From Thioalkalivibrio sp. XN279 (GTDB lineage: Bacteria; Pseudomonadota; Gammaproteobacteria; Steroidobacterales; XN24), in assembly GCF_011089885.1 (NCBI RefSeq), contig NZ_JAANBD010000028.1, positions 248,001 through 312,000 of the forward strand: a stretch of 64,000 nucleotides of DNA, in the 5' to 3' direction. This document shows, piece after piece, positions 4,861 through 23,859 of the stretch. Numbering within the stretch: position 1 is the stretch's first letter; each line of letters starts with the position of its first letter. The notes under the pieces are model-generated. The model saw only the letters and a list, made by a program, of their open reading frames with translations, had not been told where the DNA came from and did not search any database. Made by a program: the position numbers and the translations under genes.

Positions 4861-6125
4861 AGCACTTCGTTCGATGCACTAGAGCCTGGCTTACGTCGCA
4901 CAATTGACTGTTTATAGAACACATAAATCGGCGCCGTGTTGGGTCTGCTTGCGGAGGCAAAAATAATTGTGACAACTATCGCAAGGCGTATGTTTTCGAT
5001 GAACGTACCGTTCCAAAGCCATGCCGCGAGAACAAGCCACATCAGTAAACCGCTTTTTAGCTCCTTTGCCCCCGCAAGAGGCCGCAGGTGTGCGATAACG
5101 CCGACCGCAGCCACGGCGAGTATAATCAGAGATCCGAGGATACCGAAGCGCAATAATAGCGAGACGTACTGGTTGTCAACGATATCTAGATCGCTGTATT
5201 TGATAGCACCCCATCCAAAGACCGGACGCTCCAGGATGAGTCGCACGGCAGTATCGCGCAGGGCCTGACGTTCGGAGTAACTTTGATCGGCGCCAAGGTC
5301 CAAAGTAATCACCATCTTAATCAAGTCTCCCACTCGCTGGAAAGACTCGGCGATCGAAGGCAAGAAGTAGACTGCCGCAACGGGGATAACAAGCGCTATT
5401 GCAAGCTTGGGCGCCGACAGGCTTCGGCGGTTGGTAACCATAGCTGCTACAACGTTTGCCACAAACGTGACGAGCACTACGGAGGACGTGAGCCACGCGG
5501 TGCGGGACCCGCTCAGACCTATCGCGCACACAGATATAAGCGCGAGCTTCAGATCCGGGCGCACCCTGAAATTGAGAGCGATCACAAGCGAAAGGACTGC
5601 GAACAGTCCTAGGAAGTTGGGGTTTTCGAACGGAATGGACAAGCGAACATAATAGGTTGAGAACGCCGTCTTCGTGTCGCCATATACGATTTCCACCACC
5701 GAGGCGAGCACTGGCACTTCGAACATCAAAACCAAGCCGCAGGACACCCCAAAAATGAGCACGGCGAAACATGCGCGTCGAAGATCTTCCAGCCGCGGCG
5801 GCCCGACCACGAGAGCCAGCGTGCCGGAAAAAAATACCATTGATGGTTTCAGCAATTCGACGAAATCACGGACGCCCGTCGAGTAACTGGAAAGCGAGAG
5901 CGTGAGAATGTAGCCAATCAAGGAGATTCCCGTCACAGCGAGTATTGCTGGTAGTGCGATTCGCGCAGTTTGAGGGTATCGTCGGGCAAACCGATCGAAG
6001 TAGAAGATGCCCCACACTGTCGTCACAGATACGAAAGCCCACTCTACCGCCCAGTTAAAGAGATGACCCGGGATCAGCGCCGCGACCAGGAAAAACCAAG
6101 GCCGATTGCGCTTGTTAATCGGCAT
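4857..6125 (-). CDS. O-antigen ligase/polymerase family membrane protein (Wzy- or WaaL-like)
   Basis: This 422-residue protein is very hydrophobic and has around ten to twelve predicted membrane segments. It carries features of the Wzy_C superfamily: SGSRTAWL near the middle and a periplasmic stretch containing ERPVFGWG. Such proteins polymerise undecaprenyl-linked repeat units or ligate glycans in the periplasm. Sequence does not separate the two roles, but company with Wzx-like and Wzz-like genes favours polymerase. The ATG at 6125 is preferred to the GTG at 6131. Either overlaps the end of the upstream glycosyltransferase. One 60-base line here (4861-4920) has 28 G+C, against 44 in a line of the Mrp operon (36001-36060), showing its low-GC character. 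Confidence 0.85.
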   Translation of the reverse strand: MPINKRNRPWFFLVAALIPGHLFNWAVEWAFVSVTTVWGIFYFDRFARRYPQTARIALPAILAVTGISLIGYILTLSLSSYSTGVRDFVELLKPSMVFFSGTLALVVGPPRLEDLRRACFAVLIFGVSCGLVLMFEVPVLASVVEIVYGDTKTAFSTYYVRLSIPFENPNFLGLFAVLSLVIALNFRVRPDLKLALISVCAIGLSGSRTAWLTSSVVLVTFVANVVAAMVTNRRSLSAPKLAIALVIPVAAVYFLPSIAESFQRVGDLIKMVITLDLGADQSYSERQALRDTAVRLILERPVFGWGAIKYSDLDIVDNQYVSLLLRFGILGSLIILAVAAVGVIAHLRPLAGAKELKSGLLMWLVLAAWLWNGTFIENIRLAIVVTIIFASASRPNTAPIYVFYKQSIVRRKPGSSASNEVL

Positions 6126-7362
6126 CAGCACTCGCCCTACTCCAAGGCCATACGTGCTGTGCCTTAGACAGGGCCGCGATGTGAGCGGTCAACGCCGCAG
6201 TCGCCTCTTGGCAATCGCGAACGCCGGCAAACGTGCTGGCTGTAGCGGTAGCAGATGGATGTCGAATCCGCCGGATTACGCGCATCGCTTGACCGGCCAG
6301 TTCCAACGTTGCTTCCTTGGAAATGGAGAACGCAGTAGCGAACCATCCACGATACCGCGCATAAACCGCCACCGCATCCAAGGTTTCGCGATAGTAGCTC
6401 GGATGCGCAAAAAAGCACTTGGCGTACAGTCGCGGAAAATTCGCAGTTCGGTCGTCGCCAAGTTTCTCCGCTGCCTTTATCAACGAATAAGACCAGACGG
6501 TGGGCACGCTGTAAAACTCCGGTATGCGTGGATCCCAAGCCAGATCATGAAATGGTCCGATGTGCGCGTTATCACGCAACTTCCCCTTGTGGCGACCCTC
6601 GGCGCTCTGCCCCGAGGTACTGGCTCCGGAGCTACCGGGAACTATGAACGGGAAGTCGATCTCGACGGCGCTGAGCGCCTCGGCCGAAATCAATGCTGCG
6701 CTGTATGCGTCTGGGCTGACGCCCCCGAAGAGCGAGCCATGCCGGACCTCAATGCGCTCGACGAGCGCGCGGGAAACCATCCCGAGGTAGGCGCGCGGCA
6801 TTCGTAGCACGCCGGCTCCGAGCAAGTCCAAGGCCTCACGGTAAGCTTCTGCCGCATCGAATGGTCGAACTGTGGACGTGAAAGGTAAGACGGCGAGCTT
6901 GGCCGCATAGCCATCCCCGAAGTATCGGGACGAGAAGTCAGGCCAGTAATAGCTCGCCGGAAACGTGCACCGGACCGAGTCTACGCCCTGTTCGCGGGCC
7001 CAAGCGGCAATTTCCTCCGCGCTCGAGTGGACGAAGTCGTCATCACCAATGAAAATGAGATAATCGCCTGTAGCATGGCGCGCTGCTTCACGAAAGTTAT
7101 CGACCACCGTTAACTGGCGGTCCGAGACCGGTCGAATCAACCGCACACGACCCCTTGCGACCCAGTCCGCGAGCTCGCGGGACAATAGATCCTCTGCGGA
7201 TGTATCGCACACGATGATCTCGCTGCGCGGCAGGTTATTCGCCAGTGCGGCAACGGCGCATGCCGCATATCTCTGACGGTCATGAGTGGGAATCAGTATG
7301 GAAAGAACTGGCGGCGGGCCACTCCCGAAAGGCGAGTTCGCCACGACGGTCCCCTCTCTCAT
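6115..7362 (-). CDS. Glycosyltransferase family 2 with C-terminal extension
   Basis: This 415-residue protein begins with a short leader and then LSILIPTHDRQRYAACAVAAL, with IVCDTSAED and the metal-binding FIGDDD in the first 110 residues. This is a GT-A family 2 domain of about 230 residues. The remaining ~180 residues are not a recognisable catalytic domain and may hold acceptor-binding or membrane-associated helices. The ATG at 7362 overlaps the stop of the dehydratase gene by one base. A GTG at 7365 would give a four-base overlap and one extra residue. It ends 17 or 11 bases inside the downstream polymerase gene, depending on that gene's start. The donor sugar cannot be assigned. Confidence 0.85.
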   Translation of the reverse strand: MREGTVVANSPFGSGPPPVLSILIPTHDRQRYAACAVAALANNLPRSEIIVCDTSAEDLLSRELADWVARGRVRLIRPVSDRQLTVVDNFREAARHATGDYLIFIGDDDFVHSSAEEIAAWAREQGVDSVRCTFPASYYWPDFSSRYFGDGYAAKLAVLPFTSTVRPFDAAEAYREALDLLGAGVLRMPRAYLGMVSRALVERIEVRHGSLFGGVSPDAYSAALISAEALSAVEIDFPFIVPGSSGASTSGQSAEGRHKGKLRDNAHIGPFHDLAWDPRIPEFYSVPTVWSYSLIKAAEKLGDDRTANFPRLYAKCFFAHPSYYRETLDAVAVYARYRGWFATAFSISKEATLELAGQAMRVIRRIRHPSATATASTFAGVRDCQEATAALTAHIAALSKAQHVWPWSRASADAD

Positions 7363-8375
7363 CACACGCTCTCGAGCTCGCGCCGTACATAGTCCAGACT
7401 CAGGAGAACTTCTACGATTTCGGACACGCTAAGCCGCTGGGTAGTGTGTGAGGTGTAGTCCTCTACGTAGTTTACTTCGGGTTGACCCTCTAGAATGTAT
7501 TTATCGTAGTTCAGGTCACGGTTGTCAGCGGGAATACGGTAGTAGCGGCCCAGATCCTGCGCCTTGGCCATTTCCTCCCGTGAGACCAGGGACTCATAGA
7601 GCTTCTCGCCATGGCGTGTACCAATAATGTGGATCGGCACTTCGCGACTGAAGATATGCGTGAGGGCCTTGGCGAGATCTCCGATCGTGCTCGCGGGCGC
7701 CTTCTGCACGAAGATATCACCCTGCTCGCCATATTCGAACGCGTGCAGAACCAGGTCTACCGAGTCCTCGAGCGACATCAGGAATCGCGTCATGTTCGGA
7801 TCGGTAACCGTGATCGGGTGTCCCGCCTTGATCTTCTCGATGAAGAGCGGAATTACCGAGCCCCGCGATGCCATCACGTTGCCGTAACGTGTGGCGCACA
7901 TAACTGGCGCACCCTCTACTACGCTGCGCGCCTTCGCTATTAGCACTTTCTCAGCCATGGCCTTCGAGATGCCCATCGCATTGATGGGATAGACTGCCTT
8001 GTCGGTGCTCAGCAAAACTACCCTTTTGACGTCATTGGCGATTGCTGCGTTTAGCACGTTCTCGGCGCCAATAATATTGGTGCGTACCGCTTCCATGGGG
8101 AAGAACTCGCAGGATGGTACCTGTTTGAGCGCAGCGGCATGAAAGACATAATCGACGCCACGCATCGCATAACATATGGAATTGTAGTCGCGGGTGTCGC
8201 CGATAAAAAACTTGACCTTTGGGTTGCGTAACGAAACGCGCATGTCCTCCTGCTTCTTCTCGTCGCGGCTGAAAATGACGATCTGTCCGATGTCAGTATC
8301 CAGGAAGCGGCTCAGTACGGTATTACCGAAGGAGCCGGTTCCACCAGTGATCATTAGAGTCTTGTTTGTTAGCAT
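7362..8375 (-). CDS. UDP-GlcNAc 4,6-dehydratase (inverting, FnlA/WbjB/CapE type)
   Basis: This 337-residue extended short-chain dehydrogenase has the Rossmann motif GGTGSFG (11-17), STDK (123-126), RYGNVMASRGSVIP and the C-terminal GTRHGEKLYESL block typical of FnlA/WbjB/CapE. The usual catalytic tyrosine is replaced: the Y-x3-K motif reads M134-x3-K138, a substitution known for CapE-type enzymes. The reaction is UDP-GlcNAc to a UDP-2-acetamido-2,6-dideoxy-4-keto hexose. The FnlB/FnlC-type reductase and 2-epimerase that normally complete UDP-L-FucNAc synthesis are not in this window, so the keto sugar may instead feed one of the DegT proteins upstream. Contrast with the Y-x3-K PseB homologue at 22849-23859. 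Confidence 0.88.
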   Translation of the reverse strand: MLTNKTLMITGGTGSFGNTVLSRFLDTDIGQIVIFSRDEKKQEDMRVSLRNPKVKFFIGDTRDYNSICYAMRGVDYVFHAAALKQVPSCEFFPMEAVRTNIIGAENVLNAAIANDVKRVVLLSTDKAVYPINAMGISKAMAEKVLIAKARSVVEGAPVMCATRYGNVMASRGSVIPLFIEKIKAGHPITVTDPNMTRFLMSLEDSVDLVLHAFEYGEQGDIFVQKAPASTIGDLAKALTHIFSREVPIHIIGTRHGEKLYESLVSREEMAKAQDLGRYYRIPADNRDLNYDKYILEGQPEVNYVEDYTSHTTQRLSVSEIVEVLLSLDYVRRELESV

Positions 8376-8402: not shown

Positions 8403-9827
8403 TCATATCCAAAGGGCGAGAGCCGCGGTGACCAGCGCGAAGCCAGAAAAGATGAACGCTGAGCGTGCAGCTGCGGCTCGTACGAAACGGAGTTCACCCC
8501 CATCGAACAGGCGAAAGCAACGCATCCAGGACACCAGTGTCGACACGGTGTGGTACACCGCGTAGACAACACACAGCGCGATGACGCTACCAGCCCCGAC
8601 CACCGCCGCTGCAGCAATGAGCGTAACAATGGTCAGGGCAGCCGACATTGAGGCTTGGAAAGTGTAGTCTTTACGAGCCACTAAAATACAATATGGGACA
8701 TAGCCAAGCGCACCGCAGGCTAAACCCGGCAGCAGCACACCGACATACGTGGCGACAGGCGCGGCCACGCCCGTATCACCTAACCATGCGCTCGTAATAG
8801 GCTCACGAAACAGCCAGAGCGCGGCTGTTGGGAACAGGGTCACAACGGAGATCACGTTGACAAATTGCCGTAGGGTAACCGCTGCATCGGAGGGGTTTGC
8901 CGTTGCTATGCTTCTCACGATCCGTGGCTGGAAGAACTGAACCACCGGGCCAGCAAAAGCCGTGACGGGTGCCATACACAAGGACATAGCGAGAAAGTAT
9001 GGCGTAACAGCAGCAGGCGAGGCGAGTCCCGCCAAGATGACCTTATCGAGGTTCATCACTGCTGCCCCTGCAAGACCGAACAGCATTAGCGAGCGGCCCT
9101 GCCGAAGAAAATGAGCCACAGTCACCTTGGACCTGGCGGCGCTAGCGTTCGGCAGCACATCCACCCCGATCAAGCGGAAGCTGCGCACGTAGGTGACGAA
9201 CCAATGGACGATGGCGCAACCCGCCTGGGTCCACAGAAAAACTGACAAGCTCGGCGTGATGAGGTGTAAGGCCGCAAGCGTAATGACGGCCCTGAGAATG
9301 GCGCCAAAGAACTGCAATGCCGAAGCCGTACCAAAGTGGCGGCGGGCCAAAAGTGCGGACTGACCAACGTTCTGCGCGGTGAGCGCCGCGAACATCAGCA
9401 TCGACGCCACCACGTCGGTAATGCTCAACCACGCGCCGGAAACCATGCCAACCGCCAGAGCTATCGGGAGAAGCGCCGCGTACAGCGCGACGATGATTCG
9501 GGTGCCGGTCTGCAAGATGCGGATCGCGGTTGCATCGCCATCCGGCGCCGCGGCTATATCGCGGCCAACGATGATCGACACACCCAAATCCAGCATAAGC
9601 ATCAGAGCCTGGACCGAGAGCACTACCGCAACAATCCCAAATGTGTCGGGCCCGAGAATGCGGCTGAATGCGGGTAGGACCAAGAGGCCAACCAGCAACG
9701 CGCCGAACTTGCTACCGTAAAGCAGGGACAAATCGCGGCCCGCACATCTCTTCCGGATCGCCGGGTCCAAGTACGATACTGGCCGCCGTCTGGGTGGCAT
9801 TTTGTATGGACGTACCGACGTGCCCAT
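8403..9827 (-). CDS. Polysaccharide flippase, Wzx/MOP superfamily
   Basis: This 474-residue protein is strongly hydrophobic, with roughly twelve to fourteen membrane helices and the basic N-terminal cap and SKFGALLVGLLVLPAFSRILG first helix usual for oligosaccharide flippases. It should move undecaprenyl-diphosphate-linked repeat units from the cytoplasmic to the periplasmic face for the polymerase encoded downstream. The ATG at 9827 is chosen because it lies three bases after the stop of the upstream DegT gene. The longer frame would overlap that gene by about 70 bases. A further in-frame ATG nine codons on is also possible. Sequence divergence within the family prevents naming the substrate. 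Confidence 0.85.
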   Translation of the reverse strand: MGTSVRPYKMPPRRRPVSYLDPAIRKRCAGRDLSLLYGSKFGALLVGLLVLPAFSRILGPDTFGIVAVVLSVQALMLMLDLGVSIIVGRDIAAAPDGDATAIRILQTGTRIIVALYAALLPIALAVGMVSGAWLSITDVVASMLMFAALTAQNVGQSALLARRHFGTASALQFFGAILRAVITLAALHLITPSLSVFLWTQAGCAIVHWFVTYVRSFRLIGVDVLPNASAARSKVTVAHFLRQGRSLMLFGLAGAAVMNLDKVILAGLASPAAVTPYFLAMSLCMAPVTAFAGPVVQFFQPRIVRSIATANPSDAAVTLRQFVNVISVVTLFPTAALWLFREPITSAWLGDTGVAAPVATYVGVLLPGLACGALGYVPYCILVARKDYTFQASMSAALTIVTLIAAAAVVGAGSVIALCVVYAVYHTVSTLVSWMRCFRLFDGGELRFVRAAAARSAFIFSGFALVTAALALWI

Positions 9828-9829
9828 AC

Positions 9830-10954
9830 CTAGTGTCCGAACACGGCTTGCAAAGTGTTCGTCATTTGTATCGATTGAGACTCGTCTATCCACCACCCGC
9901 ACGGGACCGCCAGCACCTGTGACATGAATGAATCGGTGCCTGGCAGTGCACGTCGCAACGCATCGAACCCGCTGTAAACGTCATTTCGCTGGTGGAGACG
10001 CGTGGCCTGTAAGCCTCGAGATTGGAGTTCCAGTATGGCTTGATCCCGGCGATCAGCGAGGAAAAGAAAGGTCCAATAAGCTGGCACTGTGCCCCGCCGT
10101 GCCACGACGGGTTTCGCGCCTTGCATGTTACTGCACTCGCGAAGGATATGATGGGCGACATCGCGTGTTCGTTCCTGCCTTGCGCCCAGTGACGATAACT
10201 GCTCCAGGGCCACCGCGGCGCTAAGCTGATTGAGCGCGCTGGACCAGCCGATCTCTTCCACGTCACACTGGGGATCAATCTCTCCCAGGCTATCCCGAAA
10301 GCTAGACGCATCGATGCCGAATCGGCGCAGCCGTGTTGCGCGTGCGGCGGTCTCGGCGTTGGGGCACACCAGTATGCCGCCCTCTATGGCATTGATCTGG
10401 CGGTTGGGATAAAGCGAGTAGACGGCGTAGTCTCCCAACCTGCCCACTGGCTCGCCCGCGCTGGTGGCGCCGAGCGCGGCGTTACAGTCCTCGATTACGG
10501 CAATGCCTCGTTCGCGACAGACCGTTACGATCTCTTCCATAGGCGCAGGGTAACCCGCTATGTGGTAAACCATCACTGCTCGAGTCCTCGGTGTGATGGC
10601 TCTCTTGAGATCGTCCGGCGAAATGGCGGCATTCGTCGCATCGATGTCGACCCAGACGGCGCGCGCACCCAAGCGCGCGATTGGCGCCGTAGATGCCAGA
10701 CAAGAAAAGGCCTGGGTCAGCACGTCGTCACCCGGACCAACGCCCGCTAAGTGAAGCGCCAATATCATTGCGCTGGTCATGTCGCTTGTAGACACGACGT
10801 GCGGCCGATTCACAAGCCGGGAGAATTCCAGCTCGAACTGCGCCACCTTAGGACCTGCTGCGATCTGCCCTGAACGCAGAACCTGGAGTGCGGCTAACTC
10901 CATTTCGGCCGAGTGTACAGGACTGAACAGACGGATCATCGAATCGAGCGACAC
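9830..10954 (-). CDS. DegT/DnrJ/EryC1/StrS family protein lacking the PLP-binding lysine (degenerate aminotransferase homologue)
   Basis: This 374-residue protein has the full fold of the sugar aminotransferase family and is related to its upstream neighbour; both end with an unusual PCGWW motif. The PLP-lysine position reads YPNRQINAIEGG, so the Schiff-base lysine is Arg185 (codon CGC at 10402-10400). The aspartate that pairs with the PLP ring nitrogen is kept (Asp156), but the following His/Gln position is Ala159 and the phosphate-binding S/N-G-T motif reads D-M-T. It therefore cannot form the normal internal aldimine. It may be a regulatory or partner subunit, or have another reaction. The GTG start has a GGGG Shine-Dalgarno; stop of the neighbour lies three bases upstream. 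Confidence 0.85.
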   Translation of the reverse strand: MSLDSMIRLFSPVHSAEMELAALQVLRSGQIAAGPKVAQFELEFSRLVNRPHVVSTSDMTSAMILALHLAGVGPGDDVLTQAFSCLASTAPIARLGARAVWVDIDATNAAISPDDLKRAITPRTRAVMVYHIAGYPAPMEEIVTVCRERGIAVIEDCNAALGATSAGEPVGRLGDYAVYSLYPNRQINAIEGGILVCPNAETAARATRLRRFGIDASSFRDSLGEIDPQCDVEEIGWSSALNQLSAAVALEQLSSLGARQERTRDVAHHILRECSNMQGAKPVVARRGTVPAYWTFLFLADRRDQAILELQSRGLQATRLHQRNDVYSGFDALRRALPGTDSFMSQVLAVPCGWWIDESQSIQMTNTLQAVFGH

Positions 10955-10957
10955 GAA

Positions 10958-12043
10958 TCACCCCTTGGAAAGGGCGTCAATTATGCGTTCGCGATCGGCG
11001 TCGGTCACCCACCAACCACACGGAAGGTGTGTGAGCCGCCGGTAAAAAGTGTCCAGACCAGGTAACGGGCGTCGCATAGCAGCGAACACCGAGTGCAAAT
11101 GATTAGGTCGATGTAACTTGGATGCTGCCACATCTACGGCAGCAAGGCGTCGCTCCACACCTTCTGAATCGTCACTAAGAACCGAGTAGAGCCAATATGA
11201 AGGCGCAGCGGTTGGCTCAAAGCGAGTGATGGACAAGCCGGCGATCTTCGGGATGCACTCGTCGAAAAACCGGCCATTTGCTATGTGTCGATCGATGAGT
11301 GACCTGATCCATTTGAGCTGCGCAAGCCCGATGACAGCCGCGACGTTGTGCATATTGTACTTGAAGCCATATCGGGTGATATCCACCTCCGTGCGCGGCA
11401 CACCCTTGGCCAACCCGAACCAGCGCAGCCGTCGCGCGAGCTCAACCTTCCCGAGGTCCCGCATCGTTAGCATTCCACCATCGATGGTGGTCATGTGTTT
11501 GATGGCCTGAAACGAGAAAATCGCGAAATCACCCACGGTACCGATACCTTGGCCGCCATAGGTTGCACCGAGGCTATGTGCTGCGTCTTCTATCAGTACG
11601 ATATCATGCCTATCCGCCAACGTTCGCAGCGCTGCCAGTGGGGCCGGGAATCCTGCGTAGTGGACGACTACGATTGCACGGGTGCGCGGTCCGATTAATG
11701 ACTCGACCGATGCCGGGTCCAGATTGCCGGTGTCAGGCTCCACATCGGCAAACACAGGCACGGCGCCACATTGAAGAATGACCACGTTCGTCGGCTCAGC
11801 GGTCATAGAAGTGGTGATGACCTCGTCACCTGGCTTCACGTCAGCCAGCAATATCGCGAGATGGAGCGCCGCAGTGCCGCTGCTCACCCCGAGCGCAATA
11901 GGAAGGCCGAAGGTCTCGGCGAAGCACTTCTCAAAATGATAGACATGCTCGCCTTCGCCAATGAAGCCGCTGTAAAGCACCTCCTCCAGTGCCGACAGGA
12001 GACTCTCCCGGGGTGGCATCGCGACTTTTACTAATGGAATCAT
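10958..12043 (-). CDS. DegT/DnrJ/EryC1/StrS family PLP-dependent sugar aminotransferase
   Basis: This 361-residue protein keeps the family's catalytic set: SSGTAAL phosphate loop (54-60), the IEDAAHS block with Asp153 and His156, and the PLP lysine Lys182 in FQAIKHMTTIDGG. Such enzymes transfer an amino group from glutamate to a 4- or 3-keto nucleotide sugar in the cytoplasm. A likely substrate is the keto sugar made by the dehydratase at 7362-8375. It lies three bases upstream of the lysine-less paralogue, with which it shares the terminal PCGWW motif. DegT active sites are built across a dimer interface, so the two could form a mixed dimer. The exact sugar product is unknown. Confidence 0.9.
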   Translation of the reverse strand: MIPLVKVAMPPRESLLSALEEVLYSGFIGEGEHVYHFEKCFAETFGLPIALGVSSGTAALHLAILLADVKPGDEVITTSMTAEPTNVVILQCGAVPVFADVEPDTGNLDPASVESLIGPRTRAIVVVHYAGFPAPLAALRTLADRHDIVLIEDAAHSLGATYGGQGIGTVGDFAIFSFQAIKHMTTIDGGMLTMRDLGKVELARRLRWFGLAKGVPRTEVDITRYGFKYNMHNVAAVIGLAQLKWIRSLIDRHIANGRFFDECIPKIAGLSITRFEPTAAPSYWLYSVLSDDSEGVERRLAAVDVAASKLHRPNHLHSVFAAMRRPLPGLDTFYRRLTHLPCGWWVTDADRERIIDALSKG

Positions 12044-12070: not shown

Positions 12071-12937
12071 TCATGGGGCCGCGCGAAAGCGGGCCTTGTT
12101 TCCAGCAAGAAACTTCAGGATTCGCTGCTCCGATTCGTTGACGCGCTTGTTGTATGTCTTATCCTCAACACAGCATACCGTGACATCCGACATGCTTTCC
12201 CGCATTGCGTATGCCGTCTCACGATCGCGCACGAAAGCTACGCGGTCCGCACATGATGGCAGGCTGAAGATCAGGAGACCGGGGGTAGTGTCGTCGAGCG
12301 ATGCCCCACCAATTTCAGCGACGGCATCGTGAAGCCACTGTGTGAGCATGCACCACTTCTCATCCAACGTAACATCGCGATAAAACGAGAGCCCCGACTT
12401 GGGAGCGGCCGGAGATCCGGCAATGACCATTGAACCCGGCCACGACTTGGTGATGTTTGAACTGATTAGTGCCACGAGCCTGCGGCCAAGCGTCACGCCG
12501 GAAGCGACAATACAGGACCCCACCAACCAGACATCGTCTTCGATCAGAACAGGACGCTCACCAATTAGAGTGCAGCCCTCCATCTGTTCGCCTGCAGCAA
12601 CATGAGTCCACAACTGGGAGTACATGCCTACGCGCACGCCATTTCCGATGGCAATTCCGCCTGTGCCATCAATTACACAGTGCTGGCCGAACCAGCAGTG
12701 CTCGCCTATCGTGACGGACCTGCCGCTGAGAACTAAGCATCGGTCATGTAGTGTTGTCCAGTCACCAATCAAAACGTCGCCACCCGAACAAACTATCCTG
12801 ACGCCGGGCCCGAGCTGGCAGTAGTCGCCGATGGTCACTGTGCCTGGTTTCGCGAACACGACCTCGGCTGAGGAATGAATCTGCGTGCGGCGACCGACGT
12901 CTACGACTCCAGTGCCGGCAGTCTGGAACTGAGTCAT
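12071..12937 (-). CDS. Left-handed beta-helix (hexapeptide repeat) acyltransferase with C-terminal extension
   Basis: Residues ~20-185 of 288 are imperfect hexapeptide repeats of the [LIV]-G-x4 type (VTIGDYCQLGPGVRIV, VLIGDWTTL, VTIGEHCWFGQHCVI, IAIGNGVRVG), the mark of trimeric left-handed beta-helix acyltransferases. TH in QLWTHVA is a candidate catalytic histidine. The ~100-residue C-terminal part (from about DVTLDEKWCML) is not a family feature that I recognise. It probably acetylates a sugar, perhaps the amino group placed by the neighbouring aminotransferase. It sits between the chain-length protein and the aminotransferase pair, with gaps of 27-37 bases, all on the minus strand. Confidence 0.8.
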   Translation of the reverse strand: MTQFQTAGTGVVDVGRRTQIHSSAEVVFAKPGTVTIGDYCQLGPGVRIVCSGGDVLIGDWTTLHDRCLVLSGRSVTIGEHCWFGQHCVIDGTGGIAIGNGVRVGMYSQLWTHVAAGEQMEGCTLIGERPVLIEDDVWLVGSCIVASGVTLGRRLVALISSNITKSWPGSMVIAGSPAAPKSGLSFYRDVTLDEKWCMLTQWLHDAVAEIGGASLDDTTPGLLIFSLPSCADRVAFVRDRETAYAMRESMSDVTVCCVEDKTYNKRVNESEQRILKFLAGNKARFRAAP

Positions 12938-18290: not shown

Positions 18291-19343
18291 TCAGTCCCCG
18301 AGAACTTCCCGCTTCACCGCCGTGTTCTTCTTGACGTCCGTCACCACGCGCCTGCCGATCACCTCCGGCAGGTACTTCGGCGCCAGCCCGTAACCCGGCC
18401 GCACGCTTCTTACCGCGTCTTCTGTGATCATGTCTCCGGCCTGCAAATCCTTGACGAAATACAGCGAGCGGCGGAACTGCGCGTTGCCCTGCTCGCTCGA
18501 CTTGCGGCCGTAATCCACCCGGCCGAGCGCTTCCCACGCCGTGCGCGTGCCGCTGACCAGTGCGGCCAGCTCGGCGGGCTCGAGGGAGAAACTGTCGTCC
18601 GGCCCGCCGCCGCTGCGGTCGAGCGTGAAGTGCTTTTCGATGACGGAGGCGCCGAGGGCGACGCTGGCGATGGCCGTGGCGTTGGCCAGCGTGTGGTCCG
18701 ACAGGCCGGTGACCACGCCGAAGCGCTCGATCATGTCGGGAATGGTGCGCAGGTTGTAGTCGGCGGCGGGGGCCGGGTAGCCGCTGACGCAGTGGAGCAA
18801 AGCCAGTTCCCTGCAGCCGCCCTCGCGCGCCGCGGCGACGGCCTCGGCGATCTCCTGGGCGTCGGCCATGCCGGTGGAAATGATCATGGGCTTGCCGGTC
18901 GCGGCGACGTAGCGGATCAGCGGCAGGTCCACGGCCTCGAAGGAGGCGATCTTGTAGGCGGGTGCGTCCAGGTCTTCGAGCAGGTCGACGGCGGTGGTGT
19001 CGAAGGGCGAGCTGAAGATGGTGATGCCGGCCTTGCGGGCGCGCGCGAACAAGGGCGCATGCCAGTCCCAGGGCGTGTGCGCTTCTTCATAGAGCTCGTA
19101 CAGCGTGCGGCCGTCCCACAACCCGCCGTGGATGCGGAATTCCTCGGCATCGGAATCGAGCGTGATGGTGTCGGGGCGGTAGGTCTGCAGCTTCACCGCG
19201 GCGGCGCCGGCTTCCCTGGCCGCGTCGATGAGCGCCATGGCGGTGTCCATCCTGCCGTTGTGGTTGGCAGAGATCTCCGCGATCACGTAGGGCGGATGGT
19301 CGGGGCCGATCGGCCGGCCGGCGATGATGATTTCATTCGTCAA
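18291..19343 (-). CDS. pseI: Pseudaminic acid synthase
   Basis: This 350-residue protein belongs to the NeuB family: a TIM-barrel domain (AEISANHNG near 22-30, KLQTYRPDT, YKIASFE, STGMA, LHCVSGYPAP, GLSDHT, EKHFTLD) and a C-terminal SAF/antifreeze-like domain (about 290-350). RPDTIT and the GGPDDSFSLEP block are closer to PseI than to sialic acid synthases. It condenses 2,4-diacetamido-2,4,6-trideoxy-L-altrose with phosphoenolpyruvate to give pseudaminic acid. The start is TTG at 19343; no ATG or GTG fits, and GAGGG lies upstream. It is the last gene of the pse operon, 12 bases after pseH. Confidence 0.93.
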   Translation of the reverse strand: MTNEIIIAGRPIGPDHPPYVIAEISANHNGRMDTAMALIDAAREAGAAAVKLQTYRPDTITLDSDAEEFRIHGGLWDGRTLYELYEEAHTPWDWHAPLFARARKAGITIFSSPFDTTAVDLLEDLDAPAYKIASFEAVDLPLIRYVAATGKPMIISTGMADAQEIAEAVAAAREGGCRELALLHCVSGYPAPAADYNLRTIPDMIERFGVVTGLSDHTLANATAIASVALGASVIEKHFTLDRSGGGPDDSFSLEPAELAALVSGTRTAWEALGRVDYGRKSSEQGNAQFRRSLYFVKDLQAGDMITEDAVRSVRPGYGLAPKYLPEVIGRRVVTDVKKNTAVKREVLGD

Positions 19344-19355
19344 GATCGAATTCCC

Positions 19356-19904
19356 TCACTCTGCGGGGAAATACCTGGGATTGAAACAGGCCACGCACAC
19401 GCGGTCCACCGGCTCGCCGTCGCGCAGGTAGAAGCCGCTGAAGGTCGCCTCCACCACCCAGCCGGCACGGGTGTAGGCCTTGATGGCCGGAATGTTGGTG
19501 GCGAAGATGCCGCTCTGCAGGCGACGGATGTCGTACTTCTCGAAGGCCAGCCGGTTGCCAAGCGCGATCGCTTTCGTCGCCAGGCCCTGGCCGAGGAACT
19601 TGCGGTTACCCACCAGCGCGACCAGGTCCGCTGTCTTGTTGCGGGTGTCGATGGGGCCGATCTTCAGCGTGCCGACGCGCTCGCGCTCGCGCTCGCGCTC
19701 GCCCTCGCCCTCGCCCGTTTCAATGAGGTAGTAGAACCAGCGCCCGCTCTCGAGGCCGGCCGCGAAGTCCTGTACCAGCGTGTCGCGATCGAAGGTGCGG
19801 CCGCTGCCCGTGAAATAGTCGAGGTGGCCGTCGTCGTTGCGGTACCAGCCGACGTACTCGTCGTCGATGTCCTCGCGCGTGACAGGACGCAGGCGTATGT
19901 CCAT
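19356..19904 (-). CDS. pseH: UDP-4-amino-4,6-dideoxy-beta-L-AltNAc N-acetyltransferase
   Basis: This 182-residue GNAT acyltransferase carries the acetyl-CoA loop region (VALVGNRKFLGQGLATKAI) and the IRRLQSGIFATNIPAIKAYTRAG block common in PseH. It acetylates the 4-amino group made by PseC, the third step of the pseudaminic pathway. A low-complexity insertion of two Glu-Gly and four Glu-Arg dipeptides (about residues 63-74) is encoded by tandem hexamers at 19677-19712. It lies just before the strand leading into the acetyl-CoA-binding core, so copy-number changes would lengthen a loop and not shift the frame. The gene starts two bases after the pseG stop. Confidence 0.92.
   Translation of the reverse strand: MDIRLRPVTREDIDDEYVGWYRNDDGHLDYFTGSGRTFDRDTLVQDFAAGLESGRWFYYLIETGEGEGERERERERVGTLKIGPIDTRNKTADLVALVGNRKFLGQGLATKAIALGNRLAFEKYDIRRLQSGIFATNIPAIKAYTRAGWVVEATFSGFYLRDGEPVDRVCVACFNPRYFPAE
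19677..19712 (-). repeat. Tandem hexamer repeat inside pseH
   Basis: On the plus strand there are four perfect GCGCTC units (19677-19700) followed by two GCCCTC units (19701-19712). Read on the minus strand they encode four Glu-Arg and two Glu-Gly pairs. Being a hexamer, slippage changes protein length in two-residue steps. Confidence 0.95.
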
Positions 19905-19906
19905 GT

Positions 19907-21001
19907 TCAGGCTCCCCGGTTCGCTTCGCTGCGGTCACCATCCGCGAGCAGCGCAGCGGCCACGCGCTGGGCGCCGAGCCCGTCGCAGATGGCGGCCGCG
20001 GCGGCAGACATCTTCTGCAGGGTCGCCGGCTCATGGGTGATCGTAGCGATGATCGGCGGCAATGTCCGCGCTATGTCCCCCGGCGCACCCAGTTCAAAGG
20101 CGGCGCCCGCGGCAACGAGTTCGCGACACACCTTGGCCTGGTTGTCCGCCAGCACCACCAGCGCGCTCGGCAGGCCCATGCAGCAGCGCTCCCACGAGGT
20201 GCTGCCGGCGGCACCGATGGCGAAGTCGCTCGCCGCCATGCGCTCGGCCATGTCGTTCACGTCGACGGCGATCTCGACGGGGAACGGCAGTCGCGTCGCC
20301 TGTACCCGGACCTGCGACAACGAGGGCGCGCGGCTGCCCATGACCACCGTGACCGCAACGTTGGGCGGCAAGCCGCCGGCGTCGAGCGCCTCGAGCACAA
20401 GGCCGGTGGCGTTGTCCTTGTCGATGCCGCCCATGGTGACGAGGATGCGCGCCAGCCCGCCGCCGGCGCGGCGCGCGAGGCTGCGCGGCCGCAGCTCGGC
20501 GAATTCGGGCCGCAGCAAGGCGAACTCTGGCCCGCACAATAGCTCGCAACCATCGGGCACCAGGCGGTCGTAATCGCCCGGCGCCCGCCCGAGGGTCTGG
20601 TCCAGCATCAGCTCGCAGTCGTGCGGCCGGTCGGCCAGGTCGTCGATGACCATGATGCTGCGTGCGGCCGGGCGCTGTTGCCGCTCCCAGCGCGCATCGA
20701 GGCCGTAGTGGTCGACGACCAGCCAGTCGGCGGGGGCACCGTCGCCGGCTTGGCCCTCGGACTGACCTCCAAGCTGGAACGTGTCGCCCACATGGACGGG
20801 GAAGCCGCGACGCTGGATTTCCTCGATGCGATGACCCGGCAGCTCCCGGCAGGCGAACTCGCACGCCGCGCCGCGCTCGCGCAGTGCTTCGGCCAGCGCC
20901 AGGCAACGCATGACGTGGCCGGTGCCAATCTCCAGCGAGGCGTCCGCACGGAACACGATGCGTGGCGGGCCGGACGGCTGCGGCGTCGCGCCGTGACTCA
21001 T
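19907..21001 (-). CDS. pseG: UDP-2,4-diacetamido-2,4,6-trideoxy-beta-L-altropyranose hydrolase
   Basis: This 364-residue GT-B-like protein has the PseG N-terminal signature GTGHVMRC (26-33), with His29 the likely counterpart of the catalytic histidine of characterised PseG. The C-terminal half has GGIDKDN and GAAGSTSWERCCMGLPS, which bind the UDP moiety. It hydrolyses UDP from 6-deoxy-AltdiNAc, the fourth step of the pathway. The ATG at 21001 overlaps the pseF stop by four bases (ATGA); the longer frame runs into pseF and is rejected. Composition is strongly GC-rich, unlike pseC. Confidence 0.92.
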   Translation of the reverse strand: MSHGATPQPSGPPRIVFRADASLEIGTGHVMRCLALAEALRERGAACEFACRELPGHRIEEIQRRGFPVHVGDTFQLGGQSEGQAGDGAPADWLVVDHYGLDARWERQQRPAARSIMVIDDLADRPHDCELMLDQTLGRAPGDYDRLVPDGCELLCGPEFALLRPEFAELRPRSLARRAGGGLARILVTMGGIDKDNATGLVLEALDAGGLPPNVAVTVVMGSRAPSLSQVRVQATRLPFPVEIAVDVNDMAERMAASDFAIGAAGSTSWERCCMGLPSALVVLADNQAKVCRELVAAGAAFELGAPGDIARTLPPIIATITHEPATLQKMSAAAAAICDGLGAQRVAAALLADGDRSEANRGA

Positions 21002-21687
21002 GACCCTGCCAGCGCGCGGAACTTGAGCTCCGCCTCGTACCAGTCGTCCAGCGTGTCGATGTCCTGCACGCGGCCGGACGGCAGCACGACGGTACGCGCC
21101 GCCGGCGAGAAGATCGGCCGACCCTCGAGCCAGGCCTCGCGCGTGCCCCAGTACCACTGGCCGGCGTCGTGGTAGGCGGGCTCGAGGTCCTGCGAACGAG
21201 CAGCGAAGTGCCCGGGCTGGAACATCTCGGCGCGCCCGTCCGACGTGATGCGCAGGGCGCGCTGGATCGGGAAGCCGTAGGCGACGACCGGGAACACGTA
21301 GTCGAGCGCGTCGGCCGCCAGCAGGCTCGCGCCCTGGCGCAGGTCCTCGGCGCGGCAGAACGGCGCCGTGGCGTAGATGCAGCAGGCCGCCTGCACCGCG
21401 CCCCCCTGCGCTTCCTGCCAGCGGATCGCGTGGGCGATCACGGGGATCGTCGGCGTGTAGTCGTCGGACAGCTCCGCCGGGCGGATGAAGGGTGTCTCGG
21501 CGCCATGATCCCGGGCGACCGCGGCGATCTCGGCATCGTCGGTAGAGACCAGCACGCGGTCGAAGCAGCCGGCCTCGAGCGCCGCCTCGATCGACCAGGC
21601 GATGATCGGCTTGCCGCAGAATTCGCGGATGTTCTTGCGCGGGATGCGCTTGCTACTGCCGCGCGCCGGGAGAACGGCCAGCCTCAC
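20998..21687 (-). CDS. pseF: Pseudaminic acid cytidylyltransferase
   Basis: This 229-residue protein matches the CMP-sialic acid synthetase family: the nucleotide-binding LPARGSSKRIPRKNI (6-20), KPIIAWSIEAA, VSTDDAEIA and the IYATAPF block. It activates pseudaminic acid with CTP to give CMP-pseudaminic acid, the donor used by glycosyltransferases. The start is GTG at 21687, which overlaps the pseC stop by four bases (GTGA), and its own stop overlaps pseG. Gene order pseB-C-F-G-H-I with tight overlaps shows one operon making CMP-Pse from UDP-GlcNAc. Confidence 0.93.
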   Translation of the reverse strand: MRLAVLPARGSSKRIPRKNIREFCGKPIIAWSIEAALEAGCFDRVLVSTDDAEIAAVARDHGAETPFIRPAELSDDYTPTIPVIAHAIRWQEAQGGAVQAACCIYATAPFCRAEDLRQGASLLAADALDYVFPVVAYGFPIQRALRITSDGRAEMFQPGHFAARSQDLEPAYHDAGQWYWGTREAWLEGRPIFSPAARTVVLPSGRVQDIDTLDDWYEAELKFRALAGS

Positions 21688-22844
21688 ACCCGCATAGCCT
21701 CTCGCAGTACTTCGATAACTTCATCCTGCTCGGCATCGGTCAGCACAGGATGCAATGGAATACTGATTGTCTCCCGGTAGTATTGTTCGGCTTCAGGGAA
21801 ATCACCAACTTGGAACCCCATTGCCTCGTAATAGGGCTGAGTATGCACTGGAATGTAGTGCAGGTTGACCATGATGTCTCTTTCACGCAGCGCCTCGAAA
21901 ACCTGCCGGTGCGTGGGGCGGATTTCGTCGAGGTGCAGGCGAATCACATAGAGATGGTATGCAGAAAAGCCATCCGGGTGCTGCCAAGGAATCGTCAGCG
22001 GCCAACCTTGAAAGGCATCATCATAGCGAGAAGCGAGTTCATGACGACGCTGTACATAGTCATGCAAACGAGTCATCTGGCTCGCGCCAAGCGCCGCTTG
22101 CATGTCCGTCATGCGATAGTTGAAGCCCAGAGCAACCTGTTGGTAATACCACGGCCCATCCATCGGTCGGGTCATCAGGTGAGGTTCACGGGTAATACCA
22201 TGGCTTCGCAATAGGCCCAACTTTTCGGCCAGGACACTGTCGTTGGTAACAGCCACGCCGCCTTCTGCGGTCGTGACAATCTTGACTGGGTGAAAACTGA
22301 AAATGGATATATCGCTGTAGCGACAGTTGCCAATAGGCTGACCCAGGTAGCGGCCACCAATGGCATGCGACGCATCCTCGATGATCCTGAACCCATAGCG
22401 CTGCGCGAGAGCATGGATAGCCCGCATGTCGCAGGGCTGGCCGCTGAAGTGCACGGGTACCACGATTTTTGGCAAAGTGCCTTCGCGCTCGGCGACTACG
22501 AGCTTCTGCTCCAATGCCTTGGGGCATAAGTTGTAAGTGCGCGGATCGATATCGACGAAATCAATGGAGGCCCCGCAGTAGAGGCCGCAGTTGGCTGAAG
22601 CCACGAAAGTATTCGGACTGGTCCAAAGGTAATCCCCTGGGCCGAGCCCGAGCGCGAGGCAGGAAATGTGAAGCGCAGAAGTAGCACTGTTCACTGCGAC
22701 GGCAAACTGCGCGTCACACGCGTACTTAACAGACTCCTCGAACCGAGGTATCGCAGGGCCCTGAGTCAGGTTGATCGAGTGCATCACCTCGATCACAGCC
22801 TCGATATCTTCCGCCGTGATGTGCTGTTGCCCGTAACGGATCAT
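21684..22844 (-). CDS. pseC: UDP-4-keto-6-deoxy-L-AltNAc 4-aminotransferase
   Basis: This 386-residue DegT-family protein begins MIRYGQQHITAEDIEAV, typical of PseC. It keeps Asp157 and His160 (IIEDASHAIGG) and the PLP lysine Lys188 (SFHPVKIVTTAEGG). It aminates the PseB product using glutamate. The ATG at 22844 lies four bases after the pseB stop; the longer frame to 22907 would run into pseB. Base composition is much lower in GC than the flanking pseB, pseF and pseG: one 60-base line (22021-22080) has 29 G+C, against 46 in a pseG line (20161-20220). This suggests gene replacement within the operon. Confidence 0.93.
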   Translation of the reverse strand: MIRYGQQHITAEDIEAVIEVMHSINLTQGPAIPRFEESVKYACDAQFAVAVNSATSALHISCLALGLGPGDYLWTSPNTFVASANCGLYCGASIDFVDIDPRTYNLCPKALEQKLVVAEREGTLPKIVVPVHFSGQPCDMRAIHALAQRYGFRIIEDASHAIGGRYLGQPIGNCRYSDISIFSFHPVKIVTTAEGGVAVTNDSVLAEKLGLLRSHGITREPHLMTRPMDGPWYYQQVALGFNYRMTDMQAALGASQMTRLHDYVQRRHELASRYDDAFQGWPLTIPWQHPDGFSAYHLYVIRLHLDEIRPTHRQVFEALRERDIMVNLHYIPVHTQPYYEAMGFQVGDFPEAEQYYRETISIPLHPVLTDAEQDEVIEVLREAMRV

Positions 22845-22848
22845 GTGT

Positions 22849-23859
22849 CTACCCCGATAAGCTGGGATCGATGTTTCGGCGGATGAGCTCCCTGAGTTGC
22901 TGCACACTCAGGAAATCCGGGTTGGTGCCACTGTTGTAGGCGAAGTCACGCTCGACAGGGGTCGCCCCTGAGCGCTCGCAATAAGCCTCGACTCCACGCC
23001 TGCCGGTTGGCGAGAGGATGGCGTAGTAGTGACCGAGGTCCACCGTGTAGGGGCTGTCGCTGGAGGTGATCATCTCCTCGTGGATCTTCTCGCCCGGGCG
23101 GATGCCGGTGACATCTTGCCGGCAGCCGGGGGCGATGGCTTCGGCCACGTCGAGAATCCGGTAGCTGGGGATCTTCGGCACGAAGATCTCGCCGCCCTGG
23201 GCGTTCTCCAGCGCCCACAGCACCATGTCCACGCCTTCCTGCAGGGTGATGTTGAAGCGCGTCATGGCGGTGTCGGTGATCGGCAGCACGCCGGTCTTGC
23301 GCCTCGCGAGGAAGAATGGGATCACCGAGCCGCGGCTGCCCATGACGTTGCCGTAGCGCACCACCGAGAAGCGCAGGTCGCGCTTGCCCTTGATGTTGTT
23401 GGCGGCGGTGAACAGCTTGTCGGAGCAGAGCTTGGTGGCGCCGTAGAGGTTCACCGGCGCGGCGGCCTTGTCGGTGGACAGTGCGACGACGCGCCTGACG
23501 TCGTTCTCGAGGCAGGCATCGATCAGGTTCTGTGCGCCGAGGATATTCGTCTTGATGAACTCGAAGGGGTTGTACTCGGCGGCCGGCACCTGCTTCAGGG
23601 CCGCGGCATGGATCACCGTATCGATGCCCTCGAGGGCGCGGCGCAGGCGCGCCTCGTCGCGCATGTCGCCGAGGAAGTAGCGCAGTCCCGGGTACTTGTC
23701 CGGGCTGAACTCCTGCGCCATCTCGAACTGCTTGAGCTCGTCGCGGGAGAAGATGACCAGCCGCTTGATGTCGGGGTGCCGCTCGAGCACGGTGCGGACG
23801 AAGGCCTTGCCGAAAGAGCCGGTGCCGCCGGTGACGAAGATGGACTGCGCGCTGTTCAT
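22849..23859 (-). CDS. pseB: UDP-GlcNAc 4,6-dehydratase (inverting)
   Basis: This 336-residue extended SDR has GGTGSFG (11-17), STDK (128-131) and an orthodox Y139-x3-K143 pair, with the FNITLQEGVDMV and GIRPGEKIHEEMI blocks of PseB/FlaA1. It converts UDP-GlcNAc to UDP-2-acetamido-2,6-dideoxy-beta-L-arabino-hexos-4-ulose, the first step of pseudaminic acid synthesis. It heads the pse operon. The 60-nt gap upstream, towards the ndh gene, contains a GGGGTC-T-GACCCC palindrome (23869-23881). It is clearly GC-rich and differs from the Met-type dehydratase at 7362-8375. Confidence 0.95.
   Translation of the reverse strand: MNSAQSIFVTGGTGSFGKAFVRTVLERHPDIKRLVIFSRDELKQFEMAQEFSPDKYPGLRYFLGDMRDEARLRRALEGIDTVIHAAALKQVPAAEYNPFEFIKTNILGAQNLIDACLENDVRRVVALSTDKAAAPVNLYGATKLCSDKLFTAANNIKGKRDLRFSVVRYGNVMGSRGSVIPFFLARRKTGVLPITDTAMTRFNITLQEGVDMVLWALENAQGGEIFVPKIPSYRILDVAEAIAPGCRQDVTGIRPGEKIHEEMITSSDSPYTVDLGHYYAILSPTGRRGVEAYCERSGATPVERDFAYNSGTNPDFLSVQQLRELIRRNIDPSLSG

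Follow-up and report, generated by a model that had tools for sequence, protein, structure and literature searches.

A conserved DegT-family protein without the PLP lysine, encoded beside a lysine-containing partner in Thioalkalivibrio sp. XN279 and other bacteria

The gene pair and its surroundings

The window, a stretch of 64,000 nucleotides from Thioalkalivibrio sp. XN279, carries two adjacent DegT genes on the minus strand, both of them real open reading frames in a region where the plus strand is full of stops. The first to be transcribed encodes a lysine-containing sugar aminotransferase, P0002 (10958-12043, minus strand, 361 aa), and the second a protein that lacks the PLP lysine, P0001 (9830-10954, minus strand, 374 aa, GTG start). 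Three nucleotides (10955-10957, minus strand) lie between the TGA stop of P0002 and the GTG start of P0001, giving TGA TTC GTG. The description of the pair in an earlier note on this DNA held throughout; the minus strand had been left unstated there.

As that note had claimed, P0001 and P0002 align along their full length (BLASTP, 31% identity over 356 columns), have a PCGWW motif in common and are supported as a duplicated pair. The loss of the PLP lysine in P0001 is also supported: Arg185 (codon CGC at 10400-10402, minus strand, computed from the open reading frame start at 10954) stands opposite Lys182, the PLP lysine of P0002. Ala159 likewise stands opposite His156 and D58-M59-T60 opposite S55-G56-T57, and the PLP-pyridine Asp is retained, with Asp156 of P0001 aligned to Asp153 of P0002. 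The latter protein keeps the full active-site set (Lys182, SGT at 55-57, Asp153 and His156). Since its lysine codon is AAA, three base changes away from CGC, Arg185 is not explicable by one sequencing error. A displaced lysine, raised in the earlier note, was looked for and rejected: P0001 contains only Lys36, Lys117 and Lys281, and because all of them lie away from the pocket there is no obvious substitute, nor is there a conserved substitute column near the pocket.

By fold and profile, P0001 is a member of the DegT family without the defining features (Lys, SGT and His) of a functional PLP aminotransferase. Its match to Pfam PF01041 (DegT/DnrJ/EryC1/StrS) reaches 237.1 bits, that of P0002 287.2 bits, and the cut-off is 19.8. 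The AlphaFold2 single-chain model of P0001 (pLDDT 83.1, pTM 0.85) predicts a DegT fold of the fold type I aminotransferases, and matches DegT structures with Z up to 40.8. Both proteins fall below the equivalog cut-off of 423.5 for PseC (TIGR03588), at 162.7 bits for P0001 and 217.2 bits for P0002. Their best sequence matches are the sugar 4-aminotransferases CalS13, AtmS13 and ArnB (PDB 4zas, 4zwv and 1mdo), which are also among the best fold matches of the P0001 model (Z 38-41). These are single-gene enzymes with the PLP lysine, and P0002 retains their whole active site; P0001, in contrast, has Arg, no SGT and no His, and its family is always found beside a lysine paralogue.

Further minus-strand genes flank the pair. 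A hexapeptide (left-handed beta-helix) acyltransferase (12071-12937), presumed to acylate the new amine, has an ortholog adjoining the pair in Chryseobacterium soli. Its C-terminal extension (DKTYNKR...RILKFLAGNKARF), for which no Pfam domain match was found, is conserved with C. soli L040 9084-9938. The open reading frame of a Wzx-type flippase (Polysacc_synt, 8403-9902) begins at a GTG at 9902, and its start is likely the ATG at 9827, just past the stop of the lysine-less gene. A FnlA/CapE-type UDP-GlcNAc 4,6-dehydratase/5-epimerase (7362-8375; Pfam Polysacc_synt_2 and Polysacc_syn_2C) is presumably the source of the 4-keto sugar; it scores below both NCBIfam cut-offs, with 538.6 bits for FnlA (cut-off 730) and 321.4 for PseB (cut-off 407.75). 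A family-2 glycosyltransferase (6115-7365) is conserved beside several pairs.

Elsewhere, a FnlA/PseB-family UDP-GlcNAc 4,6-dehydratase lies nearby in most pair loci; L117 has none within about 9 kb, and L118 and L119 have weak matches only. An acyltransferase stands beside the pair in the loci examined, and its type varies: hexapeptide in the window, C. soli, L118 and L119; GNAT in L041, L060-L063, L109, L116, L117 and L120; formyltransferase-like in L039 and L115, with a PglD-like enzyme also in L115. The last type suggests that N-formylation may take the place of acetylation in some loci. In the Clostridia bacterium locus L039, two formyltransferase-like genes (9128-10499) lie directly 3' of the lysine-less gene, and a gene at 7430-8101 of L115 is homologous to the first of them.

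The serial arrangement of UDP-GlcNAc 4,6-dehydratase, DegT 4-aminotransferase and N-acetyltransferase is that of PseB-PseC-PseH and PglF-PglE-PglD, which have one aminotransferase gene, whereas the pair loci have one with the lysine and one without. Because the order of dehydratase, aminotransferase and acyltransferase matches the PseB-PseC-PseH route, the product is likely a 4-acylamino-2-acetamido-2,4,6-trideoxyhexose. An ordinary one-gene contrast to the pair is present in the same window, in the form of an apparently complete pseudaminic acid cluster (18291-23859, minus strand) with PseB (22849-23859), a single PseC-like DegT with the normal lysine (21684-22907), PseF, PseG, PseH and PseI.

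Spread, pairing and drift of the lysine-less family

A homologue scan covering 84,980 species genomes and plasmids, together with whole-genome profile searches (1,991 genome searches, some genomes being searched repeatedly), brought 28 further lysine-less homologues and raised the family to 29 proteins, 25 in the main alignment and 4 added later. They belong to Pseudomonadota, Bacteroidota (Weeksellaceae) and Clostridia. The first relatives with Arg at this site, which the earlier note had proposed to seek, came from C. soli (L040), a Clostridia bacterium (L039) and a Sphingomonadaceae plasmid (L041); the plasmid, phage and viral-contig searches gave no lysine-less member besides this plasmid among the matches examined. 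The trait is rare in broad draws, where roughly 1% of genomes or fewer have it (3 of 369 in the class of Thioalkalivibrio sp. XN279 itself), but it occurs in 11 of 188 genomes of the C. soli family and in 12 of 36, about one third, of the bacterial family f106. Within the same order, the closest DegT genes of other genomes have Lys, but the presence of lysine-less homologues in other phyla shows that this is not the local mutation that the earlier note had considered.

The SFxxxK segment, which holds the Schiff-base lysine in P0002, has no Lys in any of the 29 members; at position 185, 17 have Arg, 7 Ser, 4 Asn and 1 Thr. All members outside family f106 have Arg, whereas the f106 loci (L060-L061 and others) encode Ser, Asn or Thr. 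The SGT phosphate loop and the His/Gln near O3', present in P0002 and replaced in P0001 (DMT, Ala159), are variable across the lysine-less family, and the pyridine-nitrogen Asp is replaced by Glu in L044 and L080-L082. ColD and the AscC/E1 3-dehydratases are DegT-family enzymes with a conserved His in place of the PLP lysine. The lysine-less family is like them in its DegT fold and replaced lysine, and unlike them in its varied replacement (Arg, Ser, Asn or Thr, with His in none of the 29 members) and its lost phosphate loop; ColD-like His chemistry was rejected on the absence of His. Because position 185 varies, Arg was also rejected as a conserved catalytic replacement of the kind that His is in ColD; it is one among several tolerated residues and no new catalytic residue. 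The special standing given to Arg in the earlier note is thus not borne out, and the varied position and drifted phosphate loop argue against a new PLP reaction using it, which is unlikely.

Whether the pair always co-occurs, a question raised at the outset, can be answered from both sides. All 29 lysine-less genes, each from a different genome, lie downstream of a lysine DegT of one clade on the same strand, directly adjacent in 28 cases and with two genes between in L039, which is more than a chance arrangement. In a reverse search from the lysine clade, 23 partner-clade genes turned up, spread over two bacterial families, and every one had a lysine-less neighbour. The distance from the lysine stop to the first matched codon of the lysine-less gene is at most 20 nt, or the genes overlap, in 24 of the 25 pairs measured, with junctions such as TAATG and TGATG, which suggests coupled and similar expression. 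Fusions of the two genes were not seen among the open-frame lengths reported.

The maximum-likelihood tree recovers both the lysine-less and the lysine clade as monophyletic (support 100/97 and 100/99), each dividing into the same three groups, with single-gene lysine relatives outside both. Such relatives with a similar GWW end (L045, L056, L069, L083 and phage L064) were considered as unpaired partners and rejected, since they fall outside the partner clade. The single-gene lysine relatives on phage and viral contigs (L064, L147-L156) have the GWW ending and a QAIKxLTTGDGG-type motif, and no lysine-less partner was found for them. Pairwise distances in the two clades are strongly correlated (Mantel r 0.90, with none of 5000 permutations as high); inside the Bacteroidota/Clostridia group the correlation is weak (r 0.28, with 126 of 2000 permutations as high). 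The simplest account of this history would be one ancient pair moving as a unit.

Purifying selection acts on the lysine-less gene (dN/dS 0.11-0.30 for those comparisons that allowed dS to be estimated), which evolves faster than its partner, with a mean pairwise difference of 0.60 in its clade versus 0.44 in the lysine clade. Mean entropy of the PLP-pocket columns is 1.53 bits, against 0.00 bits (invariant) in the lysine clade. The lysine, the SGT loop, His159, Gln182 and Thr188 have drifted, whereas Ser180 never varies and Asp156 is retained in most members. The clade has invariants of its own, namely C85, W101, D103, F219, R220, D231, H321, N324 and Y327. Loop 213-232, to which F219, R220 and D231 belong, is of fixed length, and its G224 is nearly invariant. 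The FG-GY loop, counted by eye on alignments, has 22 residues in the lysine-less clade, 15 in the lysine clade and 17-25 in single-gene enzymes. Just past it lies a GYK-Y-[HN]-MN segment (Lys238 and Tyr239 in lysine-less numbering) that the lysine clade keeps and the lysine-less clade has lost.

A proposed two-part enzyme and rival readings

Serine palmitoyltransferase, in which LCB1, without the PLP lysine, pairs with LCB2 (PMC3794620), is by analogy the best reading of how the DegT pair may work. Both have two homologous fold-type-I chains, of which one lacks the PLP lysine along with other key residues, and the constant encoding of a lysine-less chain with a lysine chain holds for the DegT pair in 29 of 29 and 23 of 23 cases. 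The two differ in that LCB1/LCB2 are eukaryotic, membrane-bound alpha-oxoamine synthases whose heterodimer was shown experimentally, whereas the DegT heteromer is read from genes.

Because its two genes are always inherited together, the pair probably acts as a single enzyme of two parts, one of them catalytically dead. We lean towards the view that the lysine-less protein is a dead DegT paralogue and the obligate partner of the lysine DegT in a two-component nucleotide-sugar aminotransferase; the physical complex, the shared active site, the substrate and the product are what we infer from sequence. The substrate, a UDP-2-acetamido-2,6-dideoxy-4-keto sugar, would come from a FnlA/PseB-type enzyme, and the lysine subunit, with PLP on Lys182, would add the 4-amino group to it. 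From its side of the dimer interface, the lysine-less subunit would supply missing parts of the active site or determine its shape; alternatively, it would serve the stability and regulation of the enzyme. Before the sugar enters a surface polysaccharide, its amine would be capped by the acyltransferase encoded next to the pair. The active/inactive heterodimer suggested in the earlier note is thus the favoured reading, in that co-occurrence and the lost lysine both stand; the heterodimer itself is plausible.

Structures of relatives bear on this in two directions. The active site of Pcryo_0638 takes Lys215 and Tyr229 from subunit B (PMC8040287), and that of Spr1654 needs both subunits (PMC5936713). 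A lysine-less chain serving the site of the lysine chain is consistent with this, because the 213-232 region reaches the partner's active site in solved relatives. By its distance from the lysine, the GYK-Y-[HN]-MN segment would also belong to the cross-subunit region; in that case the lysine site would lack it in a simple heterodimer, since the lysine-less clade has lost it. This pattern would be easier to explain by a Lys/Lys homodimer, by itself or as part of a larger assembly with the lysine-less protein, or by a separate lysine-less dimer, and for this reason confidence in the heteromer is held at a moderate level.

The same loss gives room to another account, in which the lysine-less protein is a dimer on its own with a PLP-free use of the pocket, such as binding or presenting a labile keto sugar or PLP-free epimerisation, and the lysine protein is an ordinary homodimer, co-inheritance reflecting a common pathway and no complex. 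The lysine partner retains its own cross-subunit residues, which the lysine-less clade is without, and C85, W101, D103, F219, R220, H321, N324 and Y327 could form a ligand site. However, the translational spacing and the 29 of 29 linkage exceed what two pathway enzymes usually show, and the wide variation at pocket positions speaks against conserved chemistry at the old PLP site. To our knowledge, the DegT family has no PLP-free enzyme, and we regard this account as possible though not likely. Somewhat more doubtful is the idea that the remodelled pocket (invariant C85, W101, H321, N324 and Y327; loop FR...G[DE][IL]) performs a PLP-free or PMP-assisted keto-sugar step within a two-reaction complex, yielding a sugar not made by PseC-type enzymes.

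A lysine-independent reaction with PLP or PMP still bound, and Arg in the role that His has in ColD and AscC/E1, would agree with the mostly kept Asp156 and the invariant Ser180; the PDB titles of Lys-to-Ala crystals of ArnB, PglE and WlaRF also describe PLP, product or external aldimine still held. Yet the residues seen at position 185 (Arg, Ser, Asn and Thr) never include His, and the clade has also lost the SGT phosphate loop, His159 and the K238 segment. Its pocket entropy is far from the 0.00 bits of the lysine clade, and even Asp156 becomes Glu in L044 and L080-L082, all of which makes such a reaction quite improbable. A decaying duplicate, or a sequencing or assembly error, would agree with the fast evolution of the gene, but is hardly credible and was rejected: frames are intact in at least three phyla, the selection is purifying, CGC is three changes from AAA, and there are 29 cases.

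Meaning for the DegT family

The DegT family supplies the rare amino sugars found in O-antigens, capsules and antibiotics, and its enzymes are regarded as homodimers encoded by one gene each. Against this background, the lysine-less DegT partner is real, conserved and unexpected. Full-text searches of open-licence papers brought up no account of DegT proteins working as a heteromeric pair, a novelty that is provisional because subscription papers mostly lie outside such a search. If the two-component reading is true, some DegT enzymes would consist of two parts, with a partner that is widespread and co-inherited, and genes annotated as 'DegT aminotransferase' would include non-catalytic subunits. 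The lysine protein assayed alone could then fail or yield the wrong product. Additionally, the dead-subunit strategy of serine palmitoyltransferase would have a bacterial counterpart that lends itself to simple tests.
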